From positions 1 through 42,547 of IMG/VR virus record IMGVR_UViG_3300031331_000003: a stretch of 42,547 bases of DNA; one strand, 5' to 3'. The notes below the pieces were generated by a model. It did not search any database. It had not been told where the DNA came from and was given only the letters and a program-made list of their open reading frames with translations. Below are positions 30,208 to 35,413 of this stretch, piece after piece. The first letter of the stretch is position 1, and each line of letters begins with the position of its first letter. Both the position numbers and the translations under genes were made by a program. The DNA is from a virus.

Positions 30208-30260
30208 AGAAGATTAAATTAACCATCAGCACTGAGTAAAATAAACAAATTCTTATTGAA

Positions 30261-30402
30261 AAAACCAATATAAAATGTTACTAGACACCCCATTCTTTAA
30301 ACAGACGTTCATTGAATTGGGTTGTTTTTGCCTAGCAACCCGCATTACGGGTGGCTAGTAACATTTTAGATTGGTTTTAATTGTAACGAACGTTTGTTTA
30401 AA
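30261..30402 (-). ncRNA. Pseudoknot-type leader RNA
   Basis: Two long helices can form. Bases 30261-30284 pair with 30355-30378 (24 bp, one mismatch); 30296-30313 pair with 30385-30402 (18 bp, one G-U and one A-C). The second helix starts inside the loop of the first and ends outside it, so they cross. The loop also holds GGGTTG (30319-30324) paired with CAACCC (30336-30341) and CACCC with GGGTG. Transcribed leftward from the promoter at 30465, the RNA would end in TTGGTTTTTTC, a stem plus U-run. It may be a stable phage RNA or an antitermination/attenuation leader. Confidence 0.5.
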
Positions 30403-30436
30403 TTTGTTTAAAATAAATAGAGTAAACACCGTAAGT

Positions 30437-30869: not shown

Positions 30870-31337
30870 ATGAAAACAGGAAAACAATTAGGCTTAACCT
30901 TGGCAGAATGTCAAGAACTAATGCAAGGCAATGTATATCAATATCGCAAGGCGGGTGAAGATATATATAATAACGGATACTATACACGTGGTCGCACTAT
31001 GAATTCCAGACCACACGACGGCGGACATCGTGGCAATGTAGATATTTACATAATTAACGAAAATAAAGAAATAACCACATTATGCTATGATACTACTGCT
31101 CATCGTAGCAATGTAATTCTATCCGCGTTTTTATCAAATAAATTAAAAAATATAAATTATACTATTATTGGCAACTATATCACTAATGGATATTCTACCA
31201 GATTAGGATTATTCTTCTCATATTCAGAGAAACAAATTGAAAAAATGGAAAAAATATCTAACTCTCACACCGATTATATAGGTCAAGAGACAAACAACAG
31301 CTCACGAGACCACTATAACAGAATGACAATGAGATAA
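30870..31337 (+). CDS. First rightward early protein, unknown
   Basis: 155 residues starting MKTGKQLGLTLAECQELM. No membrane helix, no signal and no zinc motif. A central region (HRGNVDIYIINENKEITTLCYD) looks like a small alpha/beta domain, and the C-terminus is polar (HTDYIGQETNNSSRDHYNRMTMR). It is directly under the operator-controlled promoter, so it is likely the earliest-expressed rightward gene and a candidate host-takeover or regulatory protein. Family not recognised. Confidence 0.5.
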   Translation: MKTGKQLGLTLAECQELMQGNVYQYRKAGEDIYNNGYYTRGRTMNSRPHDGGHRGNVDIYIINENKEITTLCYDTTAHRSNVILSAFLSNKLKNINYTIIGNYITNGYSTRLGLFFSYSEKQIEKMEKISNSHTDYIGQETNNSSRDHYNRMTMR

Positions 31338-31341
31338 AAAT

Positions 31342-31449
31342 ATGAAAAAAATCAAACCTCCAATTCAACCCTTATTGAGCAAAAGAGTCCTTTCTCCATA
31401 TTTTCCTTTCAATCCTACCACCTCCAATAATTCAAGAAAATTTATTTAA
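31342..31449 (+). CDS. Short frame of 35 codons, uncertain
   Basis: ATG at 31342, 4 bp after the early gene, encodes a Pro/Ser-rich peptide (MKKIKPPIQPLLSKRVLSPY). Spacing fits an operon, but there is no domain and it may not be expressed. Confidence 0.3.
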   Translation: MKKIKPPIQPLLSKRVLSPYFPFNPTTSNNSRKFI

Positions 31450-31454
31450 ATCAA

Positions 31455-31487
31455 TTTTTTGTAAAATTAAATTTCTTTACAAAAAAA
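31455..31487. terminator. Bidirectional terminator
   Basis: TTTTTTGTAAA pairs with TTTACAAAAAA over a 10-base loop, giving U-runs in both directions. It separates the first early gene unit from the structured region that follows. Confidence 0.5.
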
Positions 31488-31513
31488 TAATAATTAAAAA
31501 TAATCTCTCCACT

Positions 31514-31757
31514 CTGCCGATGACTTCTCGTCGGCAGGAATGGGAAGATATAAGAATACTGATGTGGTATCATACCCACCTCTCGTGTCGCCAGCTCGCT
31601 CCTCGTCTTGTTCTCAAGATTGTATGGTATAACCAAGAGCTGGTCTGCTTCCCAGTGTTTCAATAATAAGAAACTGACTAACCCGAACGACACAACAGGT
31701 CTATCATAACGATAGATGAGACAATAGATAGATAGTTCGGTTAGTTGGTTCACTACC
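31514..31757. ncRNA. Three-domain structured intergenic RNA candidate
   Basis: The 330-bp gene-free stretch is much more GC-rich than its neighbours and folds in three blocks. (1) CTGCCGA (31514-31520) with TCGGCAG (31531-31537). (2) TGGGAAG (31541-31547) with CTTCCCA (31648-31654), enclosing CCAGCTC (31591-31597)/GAGCTGG (31637-31643) and TCTTG/CAAGA (31606-31619). (3) ACTAACCCGAAC (31677-31688) with GTTCGGTTAGT (31735-31745), one bulge, enclosing CTATC/GATAG. A 140-codon minus-strand frame covers it but has no protein-like character. Strand not settled. Confidence 0.4.
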
Positions 31758-31779
31758 TTAATTAACTTAAATATAAAGT

Positions 31780-32313
31780 ATGAAAAATTACATTTCATTG
31801 AATGGAAAGAAAATTGAACTTTCCGAAGAAACAGTAAAAAATTTAACTGAAAATTTAGAAGTAAAAGAAACAAATTCAGATGATATTTCTTTGGATTATA
31901 AACTGATATCAGAAATTAACTGGGAAAAAAAAGAAAAAGTTTTAATTAAAGACAAACCAAGTAAAAAAATATTCTTTAATCAATCTTTTGCTGATGGTAG
32001 CGAGTTTGGAAAAAGTTGTGTTTTTATAAAATGTAAATTTGAAAGAGGTTGTAAATTTGGAAGTTATTGTGAATTTGGAAGTTTTTGTAATTTTGGAAGT
32101 AATTGTAATTTTGGAGGTGATTGTGAATTTGGAAGTTTTTGTAATTTTGGAAGTAATTGTAATTTTGGAGGTGATTGTGAATTTGGAAGTTTTTGTGAAT
32201 TTGGAAGTGGTTGTGAATTTGGAAGTGGTTGTGAATTTGGAATTTTTTGTGAATTTGGAAGTGGTTGTATTAAAAATATGCCCTATTGGGATGAAAAAGG
32301 GAAACATAATTAA
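31780..32313 (+). CDS. Cys/Phe hexapeptide-repeat protein (left-handed beta-helix candidate)
   Basis: 177 residues. A 70-residue helical N-terminal region (KKIELSEETVKNLTENLEVKE) is followed by about 15 hexapeptides of the form [E/N/K]-F-G-[S/G]-x-C from residue 75 to 163, which fits the left-handed beta-helix register with Phe at position i and Cys at i+4. About 15 cysteines would stack on one face. The DNA behind it is an 18-bp repeat, and a 54-bp block (32071-32124) is duplicated exactly (32125-32178), so repeat number probably changes. Metal or redox binding is possible; function unknown. Confidence 0.55.
   Translation: MKNYISLNGKKIELSEETVKNLTENLEVKETNSDDISLDYKLISEINWEKKEKVLIKDKPSKKIFFNQSFADGSEFGKSCVFIKCKFERGCKFGSYCEFGSFCNFGSNCNFGGDCEFGSFCNFGSNCNFGGDCEFGSFCEFGSGCEFGSGCEFGIFCEFGSGCIKNMPYWDEKGKHN
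32071..32178 (+). repeat. 54-bp tandem duplication inside the hexapeptide-repeat gene
   Basis: Bases 32071-32124 and 32125-32178 are identical, each three 18-bp units, on top of a longer 18-bp periodicity. Lengths are multiples of 3, so the reading frame is kept. Confidence 0.85.
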
Positions 32314-32322
32314 AATATAAAT

Positions 32323-32436
32323 ATGAAAATTACTAAATATCAAACTCGCTCTCAATGTGAATATGAAACTTATTTGTTAATTATATTCGGTTGGGTCGGA
32401 TTATTTGTCGGATTTTATTTAAAATTTGTTGTTTAA
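32323..32436 (+). CDS. 37-residue membrane peptide
   Basis: ATG at 32323 encodes a short polar start and one hydrophobic helix (LLIIFGWVGLFVGFYLKFVV). It follows the hexapeptide-repeat gene by 9 bp behind an ATAAAT leader. Function unknown. Confidence 0.4.
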   Translation: MKITKYQTRSQCEYETYLLIIFGWVGLFVGFYLKFVV

Positions 32437-32451
32437 AATTTAAAATTAGCA

Positions 32452-32889
32452 ATAGAAGACCCTTCCCTTCTATATAGGGTTTTAGTAAAAAGTTTAACAA
32501 GCAATATTCTATCCACAATCATAGTAGCTGATAAAGATGAAGGTTGAAGGGGGCTCTACAATCCTTGCGGACGGTCTCCTACGGTAGAGCACTTTGTCAT
32601 CGTCCACCTTTCAGCTGGTAGCCAGTTATTTTTCTTAGAGAAGAAAGGAAACTTACTAATAAAACCTAATTGCTCTTTGTGTATTTCTCTGACCCGTGAT
32701 AGTAGCTCTCGTTGTGGAAGCAATCCCCCACCTACGGCTTGCTTCACGGGTCTGACAAGTTTATAAATTAAAATACCCGACTTTCAATAGTTTAATCTTG
32801 CAATGTAATACTTCGCAACATAACTATCTACTAATCGGGTATCTCTGTCTAAATACGTTTCCTGTTTTAAAAATGTTACGAAGTATTAC
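32452..32889 (-). ncRNA. Large structured RNA transcription unit
   Basis: A consensus minus-strand promoter (32924-32896) starts transcription at about 32889. The RNA then offers GTAATACTTCG(T)AAC (32889-32875) pairing with 32819-32805 (15 bp, one G-U), crossed by ATACCCGA/TCGGGTAT (32842-32835 with 32780-32773). Next are GACCCGTGA/TCACGGGTC (9 bp), GTAG-GTGG/CCAC-CTAC, AGCTGA/TCAGCT and GCTCTAC/GTAGAGC. A hairpin (32452-32458 with 32467-32473) may close the unit. The region is far richer in GC than flanking genes. A 63-codon minus frame inside (32556-32747) is not protein-like. Confidence 0.5.
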
Positions 32890-32895
32890 TTTTTA

Positions 32896-32924
32896 AGTAT
32901 ATCACAAACTAAAATAAGTGTCAA
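32896..32924 (-). promoter_or_regulatory. Consensus promoter for the large RNA
   Basis: Minus strand TTGACA (32924-32919), 17-bp spacer, TATACT (32901-32896). The upstream side is GGTTATCCACAG (32934-32942 is the box), matching the promoter at 34948 almost base for base in box, spacer start and -10. Confidence 0.7.
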
Positions 32925-32933
32925 ATAAAAAAC

Positions 32934-32942
32934 TGTGGATAA
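32934..32942 (-). promoter_or_regulatory. DnaA-box-like motif
   Basis: TTATCCACA on the minus strand, 9 bp upstream of the -35 of the large-RNA promoter. Identical in spacing and neighbours to the copy at 34931. Confidence 0.45.
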
Positions 32943-32945
32943 CCT

Positions 32946-33182
32946 ATGCTTTTAACAAAATCAAAAATTAAAAATGAGTCTTTATTACTCTCCACCAAAG
33001 GAGAGCCGACTTCTAATCCCTTAACTATCCGCAGAATTATTAAGTTTATCGGGTATGAAGAAATTACAGGCAAAGACGGAAAGAAACGACACTTTGTATC
33101 TATGAGGGCTATCCGTAAGTGGAATAAAGAACAATTACGAAGTAAGAATTTTAGAGAGTTTTGTAAAAAATTTAAAATATGA
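32946..33182 (+). CDS. Hypothetical early protein
   Basis: 78 residues, basic, possibly with a helix-turn-helix in the middle (NPLTIRRIIKFIGYEEITGKDGKKRHFVSMRAIRKW). It starts 4 bp past a DnaA-box motif and overlaps the next gene by 4 bp (ATGA). DNA binding is plausible from charge but not shown. Confidence 0.4.
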   Translation: MLLTKSKIKNESLLLSTKGEPTSNPLTIRRIIKFIGYEEITGKDGKKRHFVSMRAIRKWNKEQLRSKNFREFCKKFKI

Positions 33183-34947: not shown

Positions 34948-34976
34948 TTGACAGGGGTTTAGAAATTTGATATACT
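34948..34976 (+). promoter_or_regulatory. Consensus promoter for the small structured RNA
   Basis: TTGACA (34948-34953), 17-bp spacer, TATACT (34971-34976); start near 34984. The bases GTTATCCACAG ahead of it, and the -10 context, match the large-RNA promoter at 32896-32924. Confidence 0.75.
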
Positions 34977-34983
34977 TAAATTA

Positions 34984-35113
34984 AATTAAAAAATATTATG
35001 CCTAAATTACTACACATAGCAATCAATTATAGGGAAAGGACTGGCACGACAGCAATGTCGTCCCCTGCCGTAGTAAGCAGAGGCAAGTCCCTTCCCGATA
35101 ATTGATTTTTTGT
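34984..35113 (+). ncRNA. Small structured RNA with promoter and terminator
   Basis: Directly behind the promoter. A long stem, AATCAATTAT-A-GGGAAAGGACT (35021-35042) with AGTCCCTTCCC-G-ATAATTGATT (35086-35107), closes two hairpins: ACGACA-GCAA-TGTCGT (35046-35061), a perfect 6-bp stem with a GNRA loop, and TGCC/GGCA (35066-35085). The 3' side is followed by TTTTTTG, so the closing stem acts as a terminator. A 35-codon ATG frame (34998-35105) overlaps but its sequence is set by the stems. About 125 nt, function unknown. Confidence 0.6.
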
Positions 35114-35134
35114 TATGTATAATAAAATTTAGTT

Positions 35135-35413
35135 ATGACAAACCCTCAAAAAGAAAATGGTTATATTAAATTAGCGAACGAAATCGTTGACCACTTATGT
35201 TATTACCGATTATCAGGTCAAGAACACCAAATATTATTGACAATATTGCGTAAAACCTATGGCTGGAATAAAAAAAAAGACGCAATATCATTATCACAGT
35301 TTTTTGGCTTAACTAAAATGAAAAAACCGTCTATTATAAAAAATATAGAAGAATTACAAAATTTATTAAACGATTATTTAGAAATGTATGGAACAAGTAA
35401 AACCAATAATTAA
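35135..35413 (+). CDS. Lambda-O-like replication initiator, N-terminal domain
   Basis: 92 residues. NGYIKLANEIVDHLCYYRLSGQEHQILLTILRKTYGWNKKKDAISLSQFFGLT is the signature of the phage replication protein O N-terminal (winged-helix, origin-binding) domain. It stops at TAA (35411-35413) right after that domain, but the same frame continues for 55 more codons (35414-35581) into a zinc ribbon. Either the gene is truncated, or a shorter initiator is made. Replication is expected to start near here. Confidence 0.6.
   Translation: MTNPQKENGYIKLANEIVDHLCYYRLSGQEHQILLTILRKTYGWNKKKDAISLSQFFGLTKMKKPSIIKNIEELQNLLNDYLEMYGTSKTNN

Follow-up and report, generated by a model that had tools for sequence, protein, structure and literature searches.

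A predicted minus-strand noncoding RNA with a terminator-like 5' pseudoknot in the early region of a phage

The GOLLD and ROOL RNAs are large noncoding phage RNAs that are frequently found near tRNAs (PMC12286853). The skipping-rope RNA (RF02924) is a short phage-associated motif with a pseudoknot (PMC7779021) and has been reported in phage genomes (PMC8501573). An earlier note on the phage DNA analyzed here had proposed that a large structured RNA is transcribed from the minus strand and had named GOLLD and ROOL as precedents for it as a class. We examined this locus by computation and compared it both with these RNAs and with the terminators and attenuators of 5' leaders.

The window, by which we mean the whole stretch of DNA analyzed, comes from an uncultured phage (IMG/VR virus record, 42,547 bases). 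Its late genes, among them that of the terminase large subunit (28776-27541), are read leftward starting from about 29,845, and its early genes begin at 30,870 and run mostly rightward. The replication gene O (plus strand, 35135-35413), recognized by a Phage_rep_O match, lies 2.3 kb from the minus-strand RNA and a tRNA gene lies 1.7 kb from its region. The adjoining small plus-strand gene 32946-33182 is without a promoter of its own. The proposal that a separate minus-strand unit runs opposite to the early genes stands, in that its promoter and fold give good sequence support for a noncoding structured unit; a noncoding RNA is probably made from this strand. The nearby stretch 31400-31780 is also noncoding, with a GC content locally up to 46%, stems of 7- to 10-bp and z values of about -4 to -5 on both strands; it may be a further structured RNA, or else serve as leader to gene 31780. 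That gene (31780-32313, plus strand) encodes a protein with 18-nt repeats (EFGSFCNFGSNC...) of hexapeptide-like appearance. In another locus, a minus-strand gene (L004, 2587-4038) seems to encode a comparable repeat protein, and the strongly structured look of L004 3300-3800 was attributed to a repetitive protein gene.

The minus-strand promoter (Table 1) scored 11 of 12 (TTGACA-17-TATACT with the extended TG), and its predicted start coincides with the beginning of the long helix H1 described below. It had been called nearly identical to the promoter of a small RNA, and alignment with that plus-strand promoter at 34948 gave 79% identity over 52 nt. A DnaA-box consensus lies just upstream. The window contains six copies of TTATCCACA versus 0.52 expected, and DnaA-box sequences stand beside early promoters at 32934, 34931, 35823 and 30677. 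The distance from box to -35 hexamer is 9 nt at the minus-strand RNA promoter and 8 nt at the promoter of the O leader, and in other phages it peaks at 8-10 nt (80 of 111, in IMG/VR contigs picked solely for having both motifs 6-14 nt apart). This peak indicates that the arrangement is non-random, and for this reason we propose that the DnaA of the host may regulate the boxed promoters. Among relatives of the terminase locus the box occurred 41 times versus 10 in shuffled DNA, and it was near a promoter only twice.

Table 1. Features of the minus-strand RNA and of the two other leaders having the same layout.
Feature	Position	Strand	Basis or remark
DnaA-box consensus TTATCCACA	32934..32942	-	9 nt upstream of -35, centred near -49
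-35 hexamer TTGACA	32919..32924	-	promoter scan
-10 hexamer TATACT, extended TG	32896..32901	-	predicted +1 at 32890/32889
H1 5' arm, segment A, from predicted +1: GUAAUACUUCGUAACAU	32873..32889	-	helix search and duplex energy
H2 5' arm, stem S: GAGAUACCCGAUU	32833..32845	-	helix search
H3 5' arm GAUAGUU, within H2, abuts segment A'	32822..32828	-	
H1 3' arm, segment A', in apical loop of H2/H3	32805..32821	-	helix search and duplex energy
H3 3' arm AACUAUU	32786..32792	-	H3 = 7 pairs
H2 3' arm, stem S': AGUCGGGUAUUUU, then AAUUUAU	32770..32782	-	U-rich, terminator-like
Second domain, 9-bp stem GACCCGUGA/UCACGGGUC with internal hairpin	32691..32752	-	z -3.5; stem 32752-32744/32699-32691, inner hairpin 32731-32714
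Possible third domain, closing helix 32666-32649 with 32495-32478, inner 7-bp GCUCUAC/GUAGAGC	32478..32666	-	z -1.5
Hairpin UAGAAG/CUUCUA, 6-bp (8 with A-U and G.U), proposed 3' end	32452..32472	-	without proper U tract
Late-operon leader, same layout, 22-nt stem AACCAATCTAAAATGTTACTAG/CTAGTAACATTTTATATTGGTT, then U6	30240..30431	-	loop pairs with 5' segment
Phage_rep_O leader, same layout, long U-tailed stem	34984..35117	+	loop GUAGUAA with 5' UUACUAC

In the first 130 nt of the minus-strand RNA locus the order of elements is promoter, 5' segment, a hairpin with a segment-capturing loop and a U-rich tail; the segment near +1 is complementary to the loop of the U-tailed stem. The 15-bp helix crossed by an 8-bp helix that had been described is present and both helices are longer than first thought, H1 having 17 bp (16 Watson-Crick pairs plus one G.U) and H2 having 13 bp, three of which are G.U, with an 8-bp Watson-Crick core. 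H2 encloses H3 and is crossed by H1, hence the fold is an H-type pseudoknot. The H1 score exceeded that of every helix in 150 dinucleotide shuffles. Pairing of segment A with the hairpin loop was assigned -25.1 kcal/mol (z -6.4), a value that none of 500 segment shuffles equalled and the strongest duplex z among the layout elements tested. The estimated energy of the structure containing H1 (-109.3 and -22.0 before penalty) rivals that of the nested minimum free energy structure (-119.6). The hairpin loop is very large (50 nt) and the U tract 3' of S' is weak (UUUUAAUUUAU).

The same layout is seen at two other promoters of this phage. The late operon has a perfect promoter (TTGACA-17-TATAAT at 30465-30437, 12 of 12), and the loop of its leader hairpin can form about 17 bp with the 5' segment, a pairing equalled by 1 of 500 shuffles; the leader then continues for about 390 nt before the first late gene. 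The leader of gene O is preceded by a promoter at 34948-34976, and none of 500 shuffles matched its tail-loop pairing. A diverged copy of the O leader in locus L013 (351-490) has kept the pairing of the long stem with changed letters.

In other phages the leader before the O gene often has a U-tailed GC-rich hairpin with a loop complementary to the transcript start, and the leader sequences are wholly different between phages with the pairing kept. We evaluated the tail-loop pairing as the energy of the duplex between 5' segment and loop relative to 500 shuffles of the segment, the O-leader stems having been picked after the sequences had been seen. For five O leaders found by protein homology, the shuffles as good as the real segment numbered one (L241, L242 and L244), two (L251) and four (L255), and for L004, which came from a separate search, seven; the pairing was not significant in three of ten O leaders (L254, L013 and L086). 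Elements such as L094, L118, L132, L163, L198, L236 and L257 were picked by the helix itself, and the homology-selected O leaders are better evidence.

The layout scan, which sought an upstream segment, a stem comprising 8 or more pairs and followed by a T-rich tail, and a loop complementary to the segment, covered 2.65 Mb of fetched loci. It gave 42 real versus 3 shuffled hits at helix and stem scores of at least 22 and 24, respectively, and 19 versus 0 at a helix score of at least 28; by helix score the minus-strand RNA was third among all hits. When the real stems were held fixed, loop pairing at a score of at least 24 was found with 22 upstream segments, 3.8 shuffled upstream segments and 16 downstream flanks. 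Some of the downstream excess is to be expected, as a pseudoknot keeps its topology on reverse complementation. The raised downstream value nonetheless means that the scan, taken overall, falls short of a clean test and that its enrichment is partly unspecific. Linker lengths varied widely among the elements. One further hairpin, of 26 bp, was seen within a 1.2-kb noncoding gap (L156, 12358-12450).

The Rfam scan called for by the earlier note gave no known element, introns included, and the kind of match that would have spoken against its proposal is thus absent. Over 31400-33000 there was no match at the gathering score and none above chance at E values up to 10, and group I and group II introns, RNase P and tmRNA were not found by use of Rfam models and ARAGORN. 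Terminase relatives were abundant in IMG/VR (21 loci in one search and at least 596 in another, 80 of which were kept) and had almost nothing else in common with the window; a search of prokaryotic genomes by terminase found no relative. BLAST against about 100 terminase-related phage loci plus promoter-matched loci, searches of phages and plasmids, exact 15-, 16- and 21-mer searches and a search via the neighboring gene 32946 all failed to give a homologue of the minus-strand RNA. The 16-mer matches traced to one unrelated coding-looking sequence in four contigs. The covariance model R2 found only the window and, being a single-sequence model, is weak. The covariation in related phages that had been sought for the helices is lacking since no homologue was found, and the minus-strand RNA is, judged by these searches, an orphan by sequence. 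A scan for folds covered 29.8-37.5 kb of the window. A strong fold in L205 was explained, by eye, by a tRNA-like sequence.

The promoter, the crossing of the helices, the recurring layout and the G.U strand bias come from computation; that the locus is transcribed, that transcripts terminate there, that they regulate and where they end we infer. The reading we favor, at a probability of roughly 0.5, is a 5'-anchored pseudoknotted terminator/attenuator, which has two counterparts of the same layout in this phage and may at times be read through to yield a longer RNA. The strong sigma-70 promoter, with the DnaA box just upstream, would drive transcription of a noncoding RNA from the minus strand. 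The first ~125 nt of this RNA would adopt the H-type pseudoknot, with the apical loop of the U-tailed terminator-like hairpin paired to the 17 nt at the 5' terminus. Segment A would pair with A' once the loop had been made, with stem S and the U tail coming next, and the element would act as a co-transcriptional terminator/attenuator. Part of the transcripts would stop near 32765 and the rest would read through to give a longer RNA having at least one further stable domain (32752-32691). As no gene lies downstream on the minus strand, the product would be either a short RNA with its 3' end near 32765 or a read-through longer noncoding RNA. Capture of the 5' end would protect a transcript from 5'-end-dependent nucleases and the buried end could likewise shield this RNA from 5'-end-dependent decay. 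Capture could aid or hinder termination, a choice on which the sequence is neutral. The minus-strand RNA may therefore be better viewed as a genetic switch than as a giant ornate RNA.

The competing readings concern the length of the RNA, the strand and the nature of the molecule. The locus could instead specify a single structured noncoding RNA of about 440 nt that acts in trans and is of the broad GOLLD/ROOL kind, with the pseudoknot as one domain. Its GC content is above that of the flanking genes, as had been noted (38.4% in 32452-32889 versus 25-26%), and is the highest among 438-nt windows of the early region (mean 28.4%). The region appears noncoding, its minus-strand ORF 32747-32556 (63 aa) having no Pfam match. 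Over 461 nt the minimum free energy z is -4.1 on the minus strand (-2.4 on the plus strand), the second domain (GC 55% over 32688-32758) adds a stable fold, and the tRNA gene is close by. Moreover, in L094, L042 and L015 a similar pseudoknot at the 5' end precedes 250-300 nt without genes, although these noncoding bodies are not strongly folded. (L015 also carries an abiF RNA, RF03085, at 50-86, which adjoins tRNAs in this related phage.) The perfect 9-, 7- and 6-bp stems that had been listed were all found. Against the longer RNA, its 3' half folds no better than shuffles (32666-32478, 189 nt; 14 of 200 as good), a terminator scan of the minus strand near 32452 found none, and large-RNA Rfam matches and homologues were lacking in our searches. 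Thus, of the ~440-nt structured RNA that had been proposed, the 5' 202 nt hold up (z -6.0, 0 of 200 shuffles as good), whereas the 3' portion and its end do not, and 440 nt is an unproven length. We consider the single large RNA rather unlikely.

A pseudoknotted terminator/attenuator might also be read from the plus strand, ahead of the small gene 32946-33182. A 17-nt stem lies directly 5' of TTTTT with the ORF beginning 56 nt further on, and H-type pseudoknots are symmetric under reverse complementation. This reading is improbable, since the seven non-Watson-Crick pairs of H1, H2, H3 and the inner hairpin are all G.U and none A.C on the minus strand and become A.C mismatches on the plus strand. 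The helices were chosen on the minus strand, so this count is supportive and not independent, and the H3 and inner-hairpin coordinates were read from the sequence. The plus-strand fold of the 5' 202 nt is also weaker (z -3.6) and the strong promoter is that of the minus strand. Finally, the inverted repeats could act as DNA, for instance by belonging to a replication origin or to a binding site close to the DnaA box, with the RNA structure incidental; the box itself, the surplus of boxes in the window and the proximity of gene O would fit. We regard this as very improbable: interleaved inverted repeats cannot both be extruded from DNA, the G.U bias indicates RNA, and boxes at other promoters together with the fixed -35 spacing in other phages suggest promoter control.

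The terminator/attenuator reading can be extended, tentatively and with less assurance than the reading itself, to an RNA device shared among many uncultured phages in which the loop of a terminator hairpin a short way downstream captures the first nucleotides of the transcript and gates replication and late operons, the sequences differing completely with the pairing kept. The minus-strand RNA would then stand alone among the members, its capture helix being unusually long and its noncoding body larger. If the layout is functional, one RNA device would serve several promoters of such phages, including those of a replication gene and a late operon, and would be recognizable by architecture, not sequence. 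Models based on sequence, such as those of Rfam, would overlook this device, since its pairing persists as the letters change. A functional layout would also give a testable reason for a strong promoter that has no protein-coding gene behind it.

Comparison with known systems argues against placing the minus-strand RNA in the GOLLD/ROOL class, which had been named as a precedent. The GOLLD, ROOL and OLE covariance models gave no match at the gathering score or at E values up to 10 in 31400-33000. In contrast to GOLLD and ROOL, the minus-strand RNA is shorter and is without multi-domain covariation; a covarying structure over several hundred nucleotides was not found, only the 5' half (~200 nt) being convincingly structured and homologues being absent. 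Its 5' architecture is that of a terminator/attenuator and occurs twice more in the phage. Hence, we do not regard GOLLD/ROOL as the likeliest reading. The nearest described phage pseudoknot motif is the skipping-rope RNA; for the minus-strand RNA a pseudoknot is predicted. The RF02924 covariance model matched none of 23 records at E values up to 10 (the window plus 22 others, most with the layout). The minus-strand RNA resembles the intrinsic terminators and attenuators of 5' leaders in having a GC-rich stem and a U-rich tail soon after a promoter. The O leaders fit the attenuator pattern in that a gene begins a few nucleotides (within ~25 nt) after the U tract, whereas no ORF was found to follow the minus-strand element on its strand. 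Unlike ordinary terminators, its 50-nt loop pairs with the transcript's own 5' end, and its hairpin was not reported by an ordinary terminator scan. With moderate confidence, we view the minus-strand element as a variant of the leader/terminator type of phage RNA.
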